In this document: piece after piece, positions 1 to 17,627 of the stretch
How the letters are laid out: each line of letters opens with the position of its first letter
Numbering within the stretch: the stretch's first letter is position 1
Assembly: GCF_016595235.1 (NCBI RefSeq)
Contig: NZ_JAENHL010000008.1
Location: 292,390 to 356,389, forward strand
Source of the DNA: Taklimakanibacter albus
GTDB lineage: Bacteria > Pseudomonadota > Alphaproteobacteria > Rhizobiales > Aestuariivirgaceae
Length of the DNA stretch: 64,000 nt
Direction of reading: 5' to 3'
Made by a program: the position numbers and the translations under genes
Notes under the pieces: generated by a model
Told to the model about the DNA's origin: nothing
The model's input: only the letters and a program-made list of their open reading frames with translations
Database searches by the model: none

Positions 1-776
1 TCGGGCGAGAAGATCGTGCCGTGGGTACCGCCCGGGACGACGACCATTTGTTTGGGCTCGTTGGCGGCGGCGAAGAGCTTCCGGCCCTCGGCGATGGGTA
101 TGACATGGTCCTGGTCGCCATGGATGACGAGGAGCGGCGCGTGGACCCGGCCGATAAAGGCGAATGAATCGAACCTGTCCTTCATGAGCCAGTGCACCGG
201 CAGCCACCAATAGGCCGCGGCGGCGATATCGGCGGCCGAATAATACGGCGCCTCGAGCGCGACCGCGCCGACCCGGCGCTCGGCGGCAAGCTGCACCGCG
301 ACGCCGCTGCCCAGCGACTCGCCCACCAGCATGATCGTCTCGGACTTCACCCCTTGCGCGATGAGCCAGTCATAGGCGGCGCGGGCATCCTTCACCAATC
401 CGGCTTCCGAGGGTTTTCCGGAGCTCGCGCCATAGCCGCGATAGGACACGAAGAGCACGCCAAAATCTCCGGCCTGATAGGCGGCAAACCGTTCACTTCG
501 GCCAGATATCTCACCGCCATTGCCATGAAAATAGAGAATGACCGGCCTTCCCGGCTTCGGCACCGTGTACCAGGCTTGCAACGTTTCGCCGTCTTCGGTC
601 ACCAGTCTCAGATCCGCCACGCCGACGAGGCCCGCGGCGGTGGCCGACAATCCCCGATGAGAGGGAAAATACTGATAGCTCCGTTGGCTCGCATACATGA
701 AGAGGGCGGCGAGCAGATAGAGCGATATGGCGGCGATGGCGGCCAGCCGCAGAACGGGAATCAGGCCGGCGCTCAT
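1..776 (-). CDS. Alpha/beta hydrolase, membrane-anchored, C-terminus beyond window
   Basis: A serine hydrolase of the alpha/beta fold (BEM46/ABHD13-like), of unknown substrate. I translated it by hand from the minus strand; 258 codons are visible and the C-terminus lies off the left edge. Residues about 5-28 form one hydrophobic segment, so it is probably anchored in the inner membrane. The oxyanion-region HGNGGE motif, the nucleophile elbow GESLGSG (Ser154), an acidic GDQDHVIP and the late His in GGTHGTIFS make a complete catalytic triad. The ATG overlaps the TGA of the upstream cupin gene by four bases (ATGA), so the two should be translationally coupled. Its place at the end of the DMSP-lyase-like cluster hints that it may act on an ester or thioester from the same pathway, but nothing in the sequence proves that. 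Confidence 0.85.
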   Translation of the reverse strand, partial: MSAGLIPVLRLAAIAAISLYLLAALFMYASQRSYQYFPSHRGLSATAAGLVGVADLRLVTEDGETLQAWYTVPKPGRPVILYFHGNGGEISGRSERFAAYQAGDFGVLFVSYRGYGASSGKPSEAGLVKDARAAYDWLIAQGVKSETIMLVGESLGSGVAVQLAAERRVGAVALEAPYYSAADIAAAAYWWLPVHWLMKDRFDSFAFIGRVHAPLLVIHGDQDHVIPIAEGRKLFAAANEPKQMVVVPGGTHGTIFSP

Positions 777-1390
777 GCGCCCTCCACCAGCCGGGCGGGT
801 GAGCCGACATCGCGCGTCCACGCCCAGACGGCGAGCAACGGGCTGGCATCGGTACGGGTTGCATGGCTCATGCGCGGCGGGTGCCAGACCGTCTCCCCAG
901 GGGAACGGCGGGTGAAGGCGCCGGCGTCCTTGCGCCAATCGCTCGGGCCGGTCAGGAGCCAGTAAAGCTCCGGCGCCTTATGCCAGTGATCGCGATAGAG
1001 CCGCCCCGGCCCCAGAAGCAGGAGCCCCATCAGGAAATCATCGCCGGGAAAGAATCCGTCGGGACCGACGATCTCGGCATAGGCGTAGTTGTCCATATAG
1101 CCTTCGCCCATCACGTCGTCGGAGTAGTTCGGATTCTGCTTCCAATGCAGGAACTCGTCGACCCCGGCGAGCGCGGCGGCGACCTCGGGAACGAGGAACA
1201 TGGATGTCGCAACGCATTCGGCGAAATGGCGCGTGGCGGGAAGCCGGCGCGAGCCTGGATCGATAGCCGCTGCCGGCGACAGGTCCTGAACGGCGAGGCG
1301 CGCCTTGACCTCAGCGGCTCCCTCGCCCTTGAGCGACGTGCGGATGGTGTCGATGACCCAGATGGCGGGACCGTAAATGTTGTCGTTCAA
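773..1390 (-). CDS. Cupin protein of the dimethylsulfoniopropionate (DMSP) lyase family (DddQ/DddL/DddW-like)
   Basis: 205 residues, about the length of DddQ. The cupin metal site is visible: Tyr132, His135, His137, Glu141 and Tyr143 in a YxxHxHxxxExY run, then His170 and His176 in HPPxxxH. This pattern is the hallmark of the DMSP-lyase cupin family, whose characterised members cleave DMSP to dimethyl sulfide and acrylate with Zn, Fe or Mn. The apparent start is a TTG preceded by a G-rich stretch, and no better in-frame start lies before the conserved core. It follows the iron-alcohol-dehydrogenase gene after a 213-bp gap and is fused by a 4-bp overlap to the alpha/beta hydrolase. Family membership is clear; activity on DMSP rather than another substrate is inference. 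Confidence 0.75.
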   Translation of the reverse strand: MNDNIYGPAIWVIDTIRTSLKGEGAAEVKARLAVQDLSPAAAIDPGSRRLPATRHFAECVATSMFLVPEVAAALAGVDEFLHWKQNPNYSDDVMGEGYMDNYAYAEIVGPDGFFPGDDFLMGLLLLGPGRLYRDHWHKAPELYWLLTGPSDWRKDAGAFTRRSPGETVWHPPRMSHATRTDASPLLAVWAWTRDVGSPARLVEGA

Positions 1391-1603
1391 CTACCCGCCC
1401 CCAACAACGCGGATCGGATAAAGCGATATCCACCCGATCGCGTCCCAGTTCTCAGACTCCACACCCATACATCACCAAAGGCAGAAGCGTTCCCAGGTGA
1501 CCCGATCCAAGCCCACCCGGATCGGATCGGCACTTTGTCCATTCTGCGTCGATTCCGAAACGCCATTCGCGCCGGTCGGTTAACGGCACGCGCCCCTCGC
1601 CCG

Positions 1604-2749
1604 TCATCGGAGGGCGTATACATTCTTCGCCAGCAGCAAGAGGTCGGCATCGCTCACATCGCGCACCGTGTTCCGCCGCATGGGCGCATGGGCAGCCGAC
1701 GCCATGCGCTCGGCCAGGAGTTCCGGCCGCTCGAGTTCGAGCCCATCGCCCGCGAAATCGACCTTGATGCGCGAGCGCCGCACCAGCCCCTCGAAGGCGC
1801 CCGCCACATTTCCGTCGGCCCCCATGGATCGCGCCACTTCGGCAAAAGCCTCCGGATTGCCGTCCTTGACCCAGTCGATCGTGGCCAGCATGGCCAGTCC
1901 GGTTGCCCGTCCATGTGGAACCGGTGCCAGCTCGGCCATGGCATGGGAGATATTATGCGCCAGCGCCGTACCGCAATTGTCGATGCCGATGCCGGCATAG
2001 CAGCTGCCGAGCAACAAGGCTCCCCTGGCCTCGAGATCGCCCGGCGTCGTCACCGCCCGCTCCAGCGCCCCCGAGATCAGCATGATCGCCTGGTGACAAT
2101 AGAGATCGTTGGCGGCATGCCGGTTACGGTTGGTGCAGGCCTCGATCGCATGAACCAGCGCGTCGAGACCGGTAGCCGCCGTAACGGCGGCCGGTACGCC
2201 CACGGTCAGCTCCGGATCGAGCAGCGCCAACATCGGCTTGAGCTCCGTGCCCCAGGCCCAGACCTTCCGGCCTTCCCTGTCAGTGAAAATACACGTGCGC
2301 GTCACTTCGGCCCCGGTGCCGGCCGTGGTCGGCACTGCGATGAGCGGCAGAGGATCGGCAGGCAACGCTGTCTCACAGAACCGATAGGCTTCGACCGCCA
2401 GGCCCGAGACGGCGCAGGCGGCGACGAGCTTCGCCGTGTCGAGCGCCGTGCCTCCGCCCAGCCCGATCACCACTCTGGCGTGGATCTCCCGCGCCATGGC
2501 GGCGGCGCGGTCGATGTCGCTGTATTTGGGTTCCCCTTTGAAACCGTCATAGAGGCTCGCGGCATGGCCGGCTTCCGCCAGAAGGCCGACGAGCTTGAGC
2601 GCCACGCCCGATGCGGTCATCGCCGGATCGGCAATGATCATGACCGCCGTCCCCTTGCCGGCAAAGCCGGTGACGCGGCCGGGCAACTCGGCCAACCGGC
2701 CATTGCCAAAAGCGATTTCAGGAACCGGGGCGAGAGAGAAGCTTTGCAT
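1604..2749 (-). CDS. Iron-containing alcohol dehydrogenase family protein
   Basis: 381 residues from the ATG at 2749, which has AGAGG eight bases upstream; a longer reading frame from 2785 lacks this and adds a non-family leader. NAD-binding GGGTALDTAK (about 98-107) and TTAGTGAEVT (141-150) are present. The metal ligands Asp196, His200, His265 and His279 keep the spacing known from E. coli FucO, so the enzyme should be an active Fe- or Zn-dependent NAD(P) alcohol/aldehyde oxidoreductase. It lies 80 bp downstream of the DddP-like gene on the same strand. Fe-ADH genes occur in known DMSP catabolic clusters (dddB), so oxidation of a C3 alcohol such as 3-hydroxypropionate is a plausible role, not shown here. 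Confidence 0.88.
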   Translation of the reverse strand: MQSFSLAPVPEIAFGNGRLAELPGRVTGFAGKGTAVMIIADPAMTASGVALKLVGLLAEAGHAASLYDGFKGEPKYSDIDRAAAMAREIHARVVIGLGGGTALDTAKLVAACAVSGLAVEAYRFCETALPADPLPLIAVPTTAGTGAEVTRTCIFTDREGRKVWAWGTELKPMLALLDPELTVGVPAAVTAATGLDALVHAIEACTNRNRHAANDLYCHQAIMLISGALERAVTTPGDLEARGALLLGSCYAGIGIDNCGTALAHNISHAMAELAPVPHGRATGLAMLATIDWVKDGNPEAFAEVARSMGADGNVAGAFEGLVRRSRIKVDFAGDGLELERPELLAERMASAAHAPMRRNTVRDVSDADLLLLAKNVYALR

Positions 2750-2829
2750 GCCTATGCCTCTAGATAGGCATTCCCGGGCGATCAAGCGTCAAACCGCTTC
2801 ACCTTTTCACAAAGCGAGCGCGACAGGCC

Positions 2830-4092
2830 TCACACCCAATCCTCGAAGGGGAAATTGTCCAGCCGCTCGGTGCCGGTCTCGGTGACGACGACCTGGATCT
2901 CGAGCTTCACCGTCTCGCCGGCGCGTTTCGAGCCGGTGCAGCTTTCGACGCACAGACACATTCCGGGCTCGAAGACCCCGTCATAACCTTTGCCCTTGTC
3001 CATATCGACATGGGTCGGCACGGATGGATACTCATCGCAAAGCCCCACCCCGTGCAGCGCCACGCCGTAGCGGTTCTCGTGATACTCCTCCGGCATGCGC
3101 AATGACTTGTCGTTGAACTCGCGGAAACTCATGCCGGGCTTGATGATCGACCAGTTGTGCATGATCTGCTCGAGCGCGAAGGCATAAAGCTCCTTCTGCA
3201 TCGGTTTCGGCTTGACGAGGCCGACGGTCCAGGCGCGCGACAGATCGGCGCAATAGCCGTAAGGCCCGATCAGATCGGTGTCGAAGGAGAGCATGTCGCC
3301 CTCCTTGCCGACATGGCCGGAGCATTCCTTGAACCACGGATAGGTGCGCTCGCCGATCGCCAGGAGCCGCGTCTCGATCCATTCGCCGCCATTGCGGATG
3401 TTCTCGTAATGAAGCTCGGCCCAGACCTCGTTCTCGGATTTTCCGGGCAGCGAATTCTCGCGCATGCGCCACATGCCGGCCTCGCAGACCTTGATCGTCC
3501 AGCCCATGAGCTCCAGCTCGTCGGGCGACTTGATCATGCGCGCGGTCTCGGTGAGCTCCTGGCCCTCGACCAGCGTGAAACCACGGGCGCGCAGGAGATC
3601 GACGCCCAAGGGTTCTATCTTGTCGACGGCGAGGCGTTTGTTGCCGCCGCCATGCTGGCGCATGAGATCGGCGATTTCGTCGGCCCATTTGCCGGCGCTT
3701 TCGGTCAATCGGGGGCCGCTCGCGAAATAGAACCAGCTGGTGCAGGGCCGGACCTCGTCCACCATCGGCAGGCCCTCGGCCAGATGCAGCGCTTGCGCAT
3801 ATTCGAAACAGATGGTGGGACCATCGGCAAAGATCAGCGCGTATCGCGACGGATTATGCATGGTCCAGATCTGCATGTCCGAGCAGTCCGTCGCATAGCG
3901 GATATTGAGCGGGTCATAGACCAGGATGGCCGCACAATCATGCTCGACGAGCTTCTGCTTGATGCGGCCATGGCGATAGGCCCTGACGCGCGCCAGAGTC
4001 GCGGGGCTGATCGGGTCCTTCAGCGGCTTGCTGCCGGCGTCGAAGTTCAGATAGGCCGGCTTGCGGGGATCACTGAAGACCTTCACGTCCAT
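2830..4092 (-). CDS. dddP: DddP-like M24-family enzyme (putative DMSP lyase)
   Basis: 420 residues, creatinase N-domain followed by an M24 'pita-bread' domain. DddP is a metallopeptidase-fold enzyme that cleaves DMSP to dimethyl sulfide plus acrylate. Compared from memory with Roseovarius and Ruegeria DddP, whole stretches match (DPLNIRYATD, ENIRxGGEWIETRLLA, SFDTDLIGPYG, HGVGLCDE). The six dinuclear-metal ligands appear as Asp271, Asp273, Asp283, His347, Glu383 and Glu398, at a near-constant offset from the published ones. Asp353 sits where the reported catalytic base Asp377 should be. A good AGAGG lies before the ATG, 11 bp after the cyclodeaminase-family gene. The alternative is another M24 lyase or ectoine-hydrolase-like enzyme, but the motifs fit DddP better. 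Activity is untested. Confidence 0.75.
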   Translation of the reverse strand: MDVKVFSDPRKPAYLNFDAGSKPLKDPISPATLARVRAYRHGRIKQKLVEHDCAAILVYDPLNIRYATDCSDMQIWTMHNPSRYALIFADGPTICFEYAQALHLAEGLPMVDEVRPCTSWFYFASGPRLTESAGKWADEIADLMRQHGGGNKRLAVDKIEPLGVDLLRARGFTLVEGQELTETARMIKSPDELELMGWTIKVCEAGMWRMRENSLPGKSENEVWAELHYENIRNGGEWIETRLLAIGERTYPWFKECSGHVGKEGDMLSFDTDLIGPYGYCADLSRAWTVGLVKPKPMQKELYAFALEQIMHNWSIIKPGMSFREFNDKSLRMPEEYHENRYGVALHGVGLCDEYPSVPTHVDMDKGKGYDGVFEPGMCLCVESCTGSKRAGETVKLEIQVVVTETGTERLDNFPFEDWV

Positions 4093-4103
4093 TGATTTTC
4101 CTC

Positions 4104-5021
4104 TCAGCTCAGATTGCGCCAGATGAACATTGCCGTGAACAGATCGAGATGTGCGCCGCCGCCGTTCTTGAACAGCGTGATTTCATCGGGTTGGCGCTTG
4201 ACGTCATATCCATCGCGGCAAAGCTCGAACAAATCGGCTTCGATATCTTCGCGCGTTATCACACCGCGGCGCAAGGGATCGCCCAAATCACCAGGCTGTT
4301 CGATGGCGAACCAGCGGCTGTCGACGAAGAGCCGGGCGCGGCGCACCGCCTCGTCGTCGCATTCGCGCATTTCAGGCGTGAAGCCGCCGACGAGATCGAG
4401 ATGGGCGCCGGGCTTGAGCCATGCGCCCTTGATCACCGGCACGGTCGCGGACGTGGCGCAGCTGATGATGTCCGCTTTGCCGGCCACATCCTCCAGATCA
4501 TCGGCGATCCGCCCTTTTACCTCATGCGCCAGTCTCTCGGCCTTGGCGCGGTCGCGGTTCCAGACATAGACCTTTTCGATCCCGGGACGGATGGCCCGAT
4601 GCGCATCGATCAGATAGGGGGCGAGGCTGCCGGCGCCGACCATCAGCAGGATGCGGGCGTCCGGATTGGACAGAAGGCGCGATCCCAAGGCGGAGTCGGC
4701 GGCCGTCTTGCGATAGGTCAGCGCCGTTCCGTCCAGCACGCCCAGCGGCTCTCCGGTCGCCCCATCGAACAAGGGATAGAGCGCCTGCACCGCCGGCAGA
4801 TCACGGTTCCCCGGGAACACCGTCACCACCTTGGTTCCCATGGCGACGCCCGGCTGCCAGGCCGGCAGGTTGAAATAGGTCTCCCGGTGCCCATCCCGCT
4901 CCCAATGGATCTCGGAGCGATCGACCTTGGGCTCCGGGCCCTTATGGGCTTCCGCCAAGGCATCACAAAGGTTCGTCCAGGCGCAGAGGCGGTGGACGTC
5001 TTCGGCAGAAACAAATCGCAT
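4104..5021 (-). CDS. Ornithine cyclodeaminase / mu-crystallin family oxidoreductase
   Basis: 305 residues. Enzymes of this family bind NAD(P) and act as cyclodeaminases, imine or ketimine reductases or amino-acid dehydrogenases. The Rossmann nucleotide site is seen as VGAGSLAPY (about 128-136), followed by the family's YVWNRDRAKAERLA strand-helix and the C-terminal KNGGGAHLDLFTA. The substrate cannot be named. It starts inside the stop of the DUF1194 gene (TGATG, one shared base) and is 11 bp ahead of the DddP-like gene, so all three should be one transcript. A cyclodeaminase (EutC) also accompanies an M24 hydrolase in ectoine catabolism, which is the main competing reading of this neighbourhood. 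Confidence 0.85.
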   Translation of the reverse strand: MRFVSAEDVHRLCAWTNLCDALAEAHKGPEPKVDRSEIHWERDGHRETYFNLPAWQPGVAMGTKVVTVFPGNRDLPAVQALYPLFDGATGEPLGVLDGTALTYRKTAADSALGSRLLSNPDARILLMVGAGSLAPYLIDAHRAIRPGIEKVYVWNRDRAKAERLAHEVKGRIADDLEDVAGKADIISCATSATVPVIKGAWLKPGAHLDLVGGFTPEMRECDDEAVRRARLFVDSRWFAIEQPGDLGDPLRRGVITREDIEADLFELCRDGYDVKRQPDEITLFKNGGGAHLDLFTAMFIWRNLS

Positions 5022-5728
5022 CAGGAGATTCCGGGTCCGGTGATTTCGCGCAGGAGCTTCTTATAGATCGCCTGGGTATAGGCCGCATAGTCGTCTGCCG
5101 GGATGACAAAATTACCCTGACCGCCGACGACATTCTCCTCGAAATATTTATCGAGCGTCGGCCATTCATTGAGGATGGTCAGCGCATTGATGGTGATGCC
5201 CATCTTGACCACCTTGTTGCGCGACAGAGCGACCGGCGGGCCGATATTGTTGCGCCCGTCGGAAGAGACGTCGATCACCTGACGCAGGCTCGGCGGCGCC
5301 TGCGGGAAAAGTGCCGCGGCATATTCGAGCGCCATCGAGATGGAGGTGCCGCCCTCGGCCAGGCGGCGCGGGATCTCGGCGAGCGAGGCCCCCAGCCGGT
5401 CGGCGTCCTTTTCATTCGCGATGATCATCCAGGGGATGATCACCATCTGATTGGCCTCGTCAGACCATTGCATGGCGAGGACGGCGATGCGCCCGTTCGG
5501 CCCCTTGGTGATCGCCTCCTTGACCTCAGGGCGCCTGAAGGCATCGCCGAGCCCTTGCATCTGCAGGCGGAACTCATTGGCATCGACGCTGAAGGAGCAA
5601 TCGATGGCGAGGATAAGGGCCAGGTCGACCTCGGGCTGCTGGGCATAAAGGGGGGTGCGGCCGGGGCCGGCCACCCAGGTAAGGCCAAGCAGCAGGCACA
5701 AAAGCGCCAGCAGACGACGTATGGGCAT
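5021..5728 (-). CDS. DUF1194 (VWA-like) secreted protein
   Basis: 235 residues from the ATG at 5728, which has GAGG six bases upstream. A longer open frame exists but is an unlikely leader. Residues 1-29 are a signal peptide ending PLYA. The mature protein begins with a von Willebrand A-like fold: a MIDAS-type DCSFS (D-x-S-x-S), then a WSDEAN strand and an EGGTSI segment. DUF1194 proteins are common in alphaproteobacteria and their function is unknown; a periplasmic protein-binding role is the usual guess. It is the first gene of the minus-strand cluster and overlaps the cyclodeaminase gene by one base. The 195 bp up to divergent moaA should hold promoters for both directions. Confidence 0.85.
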   Translation of the reverse strand: MPIRRLLALLCLLLGLTWVAGPGRTPLYAQQPEVDLALILAIDCSFSVDANEFRLQMQGLGDAFRRPEVKEAITKGPNGRIAVLAMQWSDEANQMVIIPWMIIANEKDADRLGASLAEIPRRLAEGGTSISMALEYAAALFPQAPPSLRQVIDVSSDGRNNIGPPVALSRNKVVKMGITINALTILNEWPTLDKYFEENVVGGQGNFVIPADDYAAYTQAIYKKLLREITGPGIS

Positions 5729-5923: not shown

Positions 5924-6955
5924 ATGAATACGCCCGTCACGCGCCCTGTCGTTTCCGGGCCGGCTTTGGTTGACCCCTTCGGCCGGCATGTGACCTATCT
6001 GCGCGTGTCAGTGACCGACCGCTGCGACTTCCGCTGTGTCTACTGCATGGCGGAGGACATGACCTTCCTGCCCAAAAAGGACCTGCTGACGCTCGAGGAA
6101 CTCGAGCGCGTCTGCGCGGCCTTTATCGGGCGCGGCGTCCGCAAGATCAGGCTCACCGGCGGCGAGCCGCTGGTGCGCCGCAATGTCATGTCGCTGATCG
6201 AAAATCTGGGCCGGCATGTGAAAGCGGGCGCGCTCGAGGAACTGACGCTGACCACCAATGGCAGCCAGCTCGCCCGTTATGCCACGGAGCTCGTGGACCA
6301 TGGCGTCCGACGCATAAACGTGTCGGTCGACACGCTGGACGAGCAGAAATTCCGTGCCATCACCCGCTGGGGCGATCTCAAGAAGGTGAAGGACGGCATC
6401 GCCGCGGCGCAGAAGGCAGGGCTGGCGATCAAGATCAATGCCGTGGCGCTCAAGGGCGTCAATGACGACGAGATCCCGGAAATGATCCGCTGGGCGCATG
6501 GCGAGGGCATGGACCTCACCCTGATCGAGACCATGCCGCTCGGCGACATCGACGGCGACCGCACCGAGCAATATCTGCCTCTGTCGGTGCTGCGCGCTCA
6601 ATTGATGGACCAGTTCACTTTCGCCGACATCCCCTACAAGACGGGCGGCCCGGCACGTTATGTCGAGGTCAAGGAGACCGGCGGGCGGCTCGGCTTCATC
6701 ACGCCCCTCACCCACAATTTCTGCGAGAGCTGCAACCGCGTGCGCCTCACCTGCACCGGTACCCTTTTCATGTGTCTCGGCCAGGAGGACGCCGCCGATC
6801 TGCGCGCCCCCCTGCGCGCGTCCGACGACAATGATCTCCTCAATACGGCGATCGACGAAGCGATCTCTCGCAAGCCCAAGGGCCATGACTTCATCATCGA
6901 CCGCCGGCACAACAAGCCGGCTTTGTCGCGCCATATGAGCGTGACGGGCGGCTGA
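5924..6955 (+). CDS. moaA: GTP 3',8-cyclase MoaA (molybdenum cofactor synthesis)
   Basis: 343 residues, the usual MoaA length. It is a radical-SAM enzyme that, with MoaC, turns GTP into cyclic pyranopterin monophosphate in the cytoplasm. The N-terminal [4Fe-4S] SAM cluster is Cys34, Cys38 and Cys41 (CDFRCVYC). The C-terminal substrate-binding cluster is Cys267, Cys270 and Cys284 (C-x2-C-x13-C). The chain ends in the conserved Gly-Gly. The SAM-binding GGEPLVRR is also present. No strong Shine-Dalgarno precedes the ATG at 5924, but a later start would remove essential N-terminal residues. No other moa gene is near. Confidence 0.97.
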
Positions 6956-17525: not shown

Positions 17526-17627
17526 GGCGGGAGGCTGGACGGGCAACCCGTACCAAACTCGTTAGGGCTGCTTCCTTCCGGACCTGACCCGGTTGGCGAG
17601 CGACACGTCCGCCGCCAACCTCCCGCC
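17526..17627 (-). ncRNA. ffs: Signal recognition particle RNA (4.5S, small bacterial type)
   Basis: On the minus strand the sequence carries the invariant SRP domain IV hairpin GGTCAGGTCCGGAAGGAAGC, centred near 17578. The ends pair with each other: 17526-17538 (GGCGGGAGGCTGG on plus) against 17615-17627 (CCAACCTCCCGCC on plus), giving a rod about 102 nt long. SRP RNA binds Ffh and targets membrane proteins to SecYEG. It sits upstream of dnaX on the same strand, a common alphaproteobacterial order. The exact ends are inferred from pairing. Confidence 0.95.

Follow-up and report, generated by a model that had tools for sequence, protein, structure and literature searches.

In this study, we investigated a gene pair in a stretch of 64,000 nucleotides (G000:C8:292390-356389, hereafter the window) of a 7.17 Mb Taklimakanibacter-like genome of the Hyphomicrobiales. 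The pair consists of a gene for a DddP-like protein of the M24 family and a gene for a cupin of the PF16867 (DMSP_lyase) family, with 1.4 kb between the stop of the former and the start of the latter. We confirmed the pair and found it conserved within the family of the host. Both proteins are probably enzymes for the catabolism of N-methylated betaines, that is, of quaternary or tertiary amines, and not lyases of dimethylsulfoniopropionate (DMSP). The basis of this reading is the linkage of the two genes in the family, the separate clades of both proteins, their retained metal, aromatic and base residues, and the neighbourhoods of the M24 clade, which are rich in demethylase genes. An earlier note on this DNA had described a DddP-like enzyme with all six metal ligands and the catalytic aspartate, a cupin with the DddQ-type metal site on the same strand, an iron-containing alcohol dehydrogenase (Fe-ADH) between them and a gene of the ornithine cyclodeaminase (OCD) family before them; our coordinates and aligned residues agree with this description, and all four genes were found on the minus strand. 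A DMSP role for the pair is unlikely, whereas the other suggestion of that note, a related onium compound as the true substrate, is likely and is supported by the gene context of the M24 clade.

Residues and phylogenetic placement of the M24 protein

Alignment with DddP showed that the ligands D295, D297, D307, H371, E406 and E421 correspond to D271, D273, D283, H347, E383 and E398 of the window protein, and that W95, Y366 and D377 correspond to W76, Y342 and D353. W95 was counted on the 4RZY alignment, and its presumed role in DddP agrees with the tryptophan described in PMC5395565; the numbering of the ligands, Y366 and D377 is that of PMC4108388. The full residue set was present in all 76 sequences of the window's clade, in all 13 intermediate sequences and in all five true DddP sequences; because all 94 carry it, it marks the M24 family and is not diagnostic of a DMSP lyase.

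Our M24 tree was a quick IQ-TREE maximum-likelihood tree of 126 rows with SH-aLRT support only, built from 167 proteins found and one typed reference (168), which were cut to 123 at 92% identity and joined by three outgroup rows; fungal DddP was not among the rows. The window protein fell in a separate clade of 76 rows (99), outside the true-DddP clade of five rows (100), which is nested together with the intermediates in a clade of 18 rows (99). The tree is rooted by three remote M24 proteins which are poor in metal ligands and joined through a very long branch, so that any direction of M24 evolution read from it is tentative. We take the metal-poor M24 proteins, by eye, to be creatinase-like. 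On the NCBIfam DddP model (NF043017) the window protein scored 425.2 bits, below the equivalog cut-off of 600, and a true DddP (L198) scored 903 bits. When 289 genomes were drawn from across the class, this cut-off was exceeded in six, three of these at 883-903 bits, and 53 genomes had a DddP match at E<=1e-60. The closest named relatives, by identity of the M24 protein, were 'Rhizobiales bacterium Y(2018)' (99%) and Taklimakanibacter lacteus (90%). Moreover, the replacements A103 to Y84, F155 to W136, C217 to W198 and I304 to Y280 are specific to the window's clade (75-76 of 76 rows), and they may reshape the M24 pocket.

Other M24 lineages were also noticed. A 40-41% identical lineage, represented in the window genome (L087, G000:C7:711849-713060) and on pSymA of S. 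meliloti (L115, 9866-11170), has Y in place of W95 and G in place of D377, with the metal ligands kept; the S. meliloti gene is located with MttB, a glycine betaine ABC transporter and an Ldh_2 family gene. At the cupin locus of a sister genus (L093 13261-14496, L094 12771-14042, L095 14125-15483) there is another M24 protein, in which five of the six metal-ligand positions are changed and whose gene adjoins a PotA-type ATPase gene.

Residues and phylogenetic placement of the cupin

The window equivalents of DddQ Y120, H123, H125, E129, Y131 and H163 (numbering from PMC4437653) are Y132, H135, H137, E141, Y143 and H176. Since H135, H137, E141, Y143 and H176 are common to 71-72 of the 72 PF16867 cupins that belong to neither the window branch nor the DddQ branch, these metal and tyrosine positions mark the PF16867 family and are likewise not diagnostic of a DMSP lyase. 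The cupin tree of 107 rows (134 sequences found and three from the PDB, cut at 88% identity; DddL, DddW and DddK not among the rows) placed the window cupin in a clade of 30 rows (99/98) and the three solved DddQ-type sequences in another clade of nine rows (98/93). The DddK and DddY chains matched the A2 profile weakly. The earlier note had raised the idea of two folds for DMSP cleavage in one organism, to be checked by phylogeny; the M24 protein lies outside true DddP and the cupin outside solved DddQ, so that for these references the idea is not supported.

Cupins of the window's 30-row clade were also observed on Phaeobacter and Leisingera plasmids (L328, L329), together with annotations of a fatty acid-CoA ligase, a 3-hydroxyacyl-CoA dehydrogenase and a thiolase; no gene in these two stretches was annotated for acrylate.

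Gene neighbourhoods of the M24 clade

With reference to gene context, an MttB, FAD-GcvT, Rieske or SoxA gene (hereafter demethylase) was detected within 8 kb in 42 of 74 loci of the window's clade, compared with 1 of 20 control regions (Fisher 1.6e-5), which lie on contigs of the class-level cupin genes at a distance of about 100 kb from these genes. Without the 12 rhizobial loci, the proportion was 31 of 62 (Fisher 1.6e-4). The 74 loci are distinct, the overlapping L080 region, the off-clade L111 and the duplicate L267 (= L133) having been removed; the count omits the short loci L198-L227, and the 20 stretches L248-L267 around such hits were partly used instead. Comparatively, demethylases were found within the same distance in none of four true dddP loci and in 2 of 11 intermediate loci (window clade versus both together, p 0.0035), and in 6 of 13 distinct loci of the outer M24 lineages.

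The nearest M24 kin beyond the genus (71-72%; L069, L070, L071, L120) adjoin FAD-GcvT genes, two of them MttB as well, and in L123 and L237 the M24 gene stands with a corrinoid protein, DUF1638, MttB and FAD-GcvT, joined in L237 by an SBP5 transporter. A Rhizobium locus (L180) harbors a GbcA/GbcB-like pair, the M24 gene, a PF16867 cupin, an old yellow enzyme (OYE) gene, Gfa, a 4-hydroxyproline epimerase and ProXWV. L149 displays the same set minus the epimerase and ProXWV within its stretch, and L105, compared with these two, has no cupin or OYE within its stretch. The Rhizobium Rieske pair reached 411.6 of 670 bits on the GbcA model and 322 of 500 on the GbcB model, and is therefore related to, but not identical with, glycine betaine monooxygenase. 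Plasmid annotations near M24 genes include a glycine betaine/proline ABC transporter, 4-hydroxyproline epimerase, ring-hydroxylating dioxygenase, sarcosine oxidase, betaine-homocysteine methyltransferase and trimethylamine methyltransferase; just or well outside the window's M24 clade, a trimethylamine methyltransferase occurs with an FAD oxidoreductase. The window genome has seven MttB genes elsewhere. Among the titles and abstract openings returned by our literature search, which left most subscription journals uncovered, none attributed a role in betaine catabolism to this M24 clade.

Further genes were observed around these loci. Those in L149/L186 that we named by eye are presumably ETF and formaldehyde-dehydrogenase-like genes, and one in L083 is presumably fatty acid desaturase-like. 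Three MttB-family genes lie within 8 kb at G000:C8:43885-51667 of the window genome. HalD-like genes of the 2-oxoglutarate-Fe(II) oxygenase type occur within 8 kb in 17 of the 74 loci and in none of the 20 controls; such a gene adjoins the M24 gene in L079, L081, L130, L132, L140 and L161, and is one gene apart in L080.

Linkage and distribution of the two genes

A DddP-like gene at E<=1e-60 was detected in 17 of 69 genomes of the host's family. Of these 17, 11 carry a PF16867 gene no more than 10 kb away from that gene, where random placement would give 0.33 (one genome, G106, was not covered by the cupin search). The 11 genomes span four genera (five in g1, one in g2, one in g4 and four in g10) with differing strand layouts. 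Outside the family, the two genes are about 13 kb apart in L237, and within 8 kb of each other in the rhizobial L149, L152 and L180 and in L154. A universal linkage was considered and rejected: besides the window genome, the class draw gave both genes within 14 kb in G382 only, and the 40 class-wide cupin regions gave no DddP-like gene at 8 kb or less (40 of 52 places were taken, leaving out four of the window genome, G382 and seven by length or contig end). The linkage is thus strong in the family, and elsewhere at few loci only. Across the draw, 28 of 37 cupin-bearing genomes also had a DddP-like gene, against 53 of 289 overall (Fisher 7e-17, kinship ignored). The earlier opinion that such genes are not typical for a soil-like member of the Rhizobiales cannot be upheld, since PF16867 was found above cut-off in 49 of 100 related genomes, and 153 of the 181 plasmid records with DddP-like M24 genes (E 1e-30; 72,556 records in all) belong to Rhizobium or Sinorhizobium.

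Proposed mechanism and alternative explanations

In the mechanism proposed for DMSP lyases, the metal binds the carboxylate of the substrate and aromatic side chains hold the onium, with the alpha proton removed by an Asp in DddP (PMC4108388 and PMC5395565) and by a Tyr in DddQ and DddK (PMC4437653 and PMC10686828). As the same catalytic parts are intact in the window proteins, the simplest reading is the same half-reaction on a nitrogen onium. In each protein, the metal would bind the carboxylate group of a methylated-onium compound; the onium would be held by W76/Y342 in the M24 protein, and the alpha proton would be taken by D353 in the M24 protein and by Y143 in the cupin. An onium beta to the carboxylate would then lead to elimination, as DMSP lyases do with sulfur, and an onium alpha to it would lead to epimerisation. 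The likeliest candidate substrate class, and the weakest step of our proposal, is a ring betaine of the proline or hydroxyproline type. It is favoured because the cluster has a gene like pyrroline/piperideine-2-carboxylate reductase, and because the relatives in Rhizobium are accompanied by genes for 4-hydroxyproline epimerase and a betaine/proline ABC transporter and by GbcA/GbcB-like genes. The OCD protein is nearest to delta1-pyrroline-2-carboxylate/piperideine-2-carboxylate reductase (PRK06141, NF004793), at 316.5 bits for a cut-off of 322. Two other assignments were tried. A reading of both proteins as epimerases only is weakened by MR/MLE genes, which could do the epimerisation step and co-occur with M24 and cupin genes in L075-L077 and L081. 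An ectoine pathway with an EutC/EutD-like pair was rejected, the M24 protein having merely 27 bits on DoeA_2 and the OCD protein 80 of 472 bits on EutC.

Several observations weigh against the betaine reading. No demethylase gene lies within 8 kb in the clusters of the window, G002 and G004, and 32 of the 74 clade loci lack a listed demethylase. The query families were picked from M24 loci, which favours enrichment, the controls come from cupin contigs and not from M24 contigs, and the comparison with true dddP regions has n=4 only. Demethylases show no significant enrichment in the class-wide cupin regions (5 of 40 versus 1 of 20, p 0.34), and a DddP-like gene within 8 kb is absent from all 40, so that the role of the cupin rests on its linkage in this family and at few other loci. 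Betaine transporters may also carry DMSP, hence the gene context leaves room for that compound.

That both proteins are genuine soil-bacterial lyases of DMSP, or of dimethylsulfoxonium propionate (DMSOP), performing beta-elimination to dimethyl sulfide (DMS) and acrylate with Fe-ADH handling a C3 product, is unlikely. Both proteins retain the DddP or DddQ residues for catalysis and metal binding, the M24 protein is 43% identical to the DddP of R. lacuscaerulensis, and the active fungal FgDddP is itself only 32% identical to RdDddP according to PMC4108388; however, the retained residues are not diagnostic, both proteins lie outside the reference clades, the M24 protein stays under the NCBIfam DddP cut-off, and the four true dddP neighbourhoods are without a listed demethylase. 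It is also improbable that the M24 protein is a prolidase-like peptidase or amidohydrolase freeing an N-methylated imino acid from an imported peptide or amide, with the cupin as an auxiliary, given that the equivalents of DddP W95 and D377 are invariant in the clade. Though belonging to another clade, RlDddP had no Val-Pro activity according to PMC5395565. What argues for a peptidase is membership of the M24 family, the name Xaa-Pro peptidase borne by relatives in plasmid records, and the SBP5 (peptide-type) ABC transporter, the importer in this reading, and amidase genes that lie divergent to the window cluster. Very unlikely, lastly, is that the two genes serve unrelated pathways and are neighbours through the history of the locus, for their linkage recurs in four genera of the family with differing layouts, and again at about 13 kb in L237 and at 8 kb or less in L149, L152, L180 and L154; such a history would fit the class-wide cupin regions (0/40 positive for a DddP-like gene), as well as the DUF1194 gene and the MoaA-like gene (so named by eye) which flank the locus in g1 and in g5, two genera whose intervening genes differ.

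Organisation of the locus

The features of the window are collected in Table 1. The cupin remnant in the gap covers 20-23 aa at 52-55% identity (E 3e-4 and 1e-5), or 36-37 bp at 81-84% identity at the DNA level, and a second PF16867 cupin is present between Fe-ADH and cupin in the same-genus genomes G002, G003 and G004. In G003, an OYE-type flavoprotein gene also lies between M24 and Fe-ADH. Four PF16867 genes of the window genome score above cut-off, and DddP-like genes at E<=1e-60 number two. None of the NCBIfam equivalog models reached its cut-off with the Fe-ADH protein.

Table 1. Features of the window, in window positions
Feature	Position	Strand	Remarks
alpha/beta hydrolase	3..776	-	start overlaps cupin stop by a few bases; runs past window start
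PF16867 (DMSP_lyase) cupin, 205 aa	773..1390	-	TTG start; PF16867 104.6 bits, gathering cut-off 27
gap of 213 bp	1391..1603	-	short vestige of a second cupin gene (tandem copy)
Fe-ADH	1604..2785	-	TTG start, inner ATG at 2749; PF00465 137.3 bits
DddP-like M24 protein, 420 aa	2830..4092	-	PF00557 89 bits
OCD/mu-crystallin family gene	4104..5021	-	PF02423 142.9 bits; start overlaps DUF1194 stop
DUF1194-type gene	5021..5728	-	similarity to L093:11353-12060
MoaA-like gene (presumed)	5924-6955		named by eye
bacterial SRP RNA	17527-17623		single match of the Rfam scan of the window

Significance

The genes discussed here matter because dddP- and dddQ-like genes are used in surveys as a measure of DMS-producing potential. 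A sizeable clade has the tested DddP residues and yet often sits in nitrogen-betaine clusters, so that the number of DMSP lyases in soil and sediment could be overestimated by counts based on residues or Pfam families. The M24 and cupin proteins are also candidates for new betaine-breakdown enzymes in root-nodule bacteria. As a tentative extension, which we consider possible though doubtful, the DddP-like M24 family and the PF16867 cupins might be N-betaine enzymes at their root, acting on a single class of methylated-onium carboxylates, and the marine DMSP lyases late sulfur-onium offshoots that kept the proton-abstraction machinery. If true, this would suggest a common origin, in one nitrogen pathway, of two unrelated DMSP lyase folds, and would explain the millimolar Km of the marine lyases for DMSP and the abundance of look-alikes on land.

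Comparison with known systems

Compared with the catabolic clusters for proline betaine and hydroxyproline betaine (Stc, Hpb), the relatives of the window locus share OYE-type flavoprotein, imine reductase-like, epimerase and transporter genes, whereas a Rieske demethylase is absent from the 8 kb around the M24 gene of the window; an M24 protein or a cupin is not known to have a role in the Stc/Hpb pathways. With DddP (4RZY of Ruegeria lacuscaerulensis, 4B28 of Roseobacter denitrificans) the window protein shares the M24 family, the six metal ligands, W95, Y366 and D377, the identity to 4RZY being 43% over residues 32-417, but it differs in clade, in model score (425 of 600 bits), in Y84/W136/W198/Y280 and in gene context. 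Likewise, the window cupin (PF16867, 104.6 bits) shares the equivalents of Y120/H123/H125/E129/Y131/H163 with the DddQ-type cupins (4LA2, 5JSO, 5CU1, 4B29), yet it is only 26-31% identical to the three solved sequences of this type that were compared, and it belongs to a different clade, in which W169 is found in 29 of 30 cupins where the five DddQ-branch rows have F, L or Q. The M24 proteins of the rhizobial Rieske (GbcA/GbcB-like) clusters, annotated as 'Xaa-Pro peptidase family', are 54-57% identical to the window protein, fall in the same clade and display the same active-site set, and in L149, L152 and L180 they have a PF16867-type neighbour, like the window. In these rhizobial clusters the Rieske pair is adjacent, with hydroxyproline genes in some loci, whereas the window has OCD and Fe-ADH instead.

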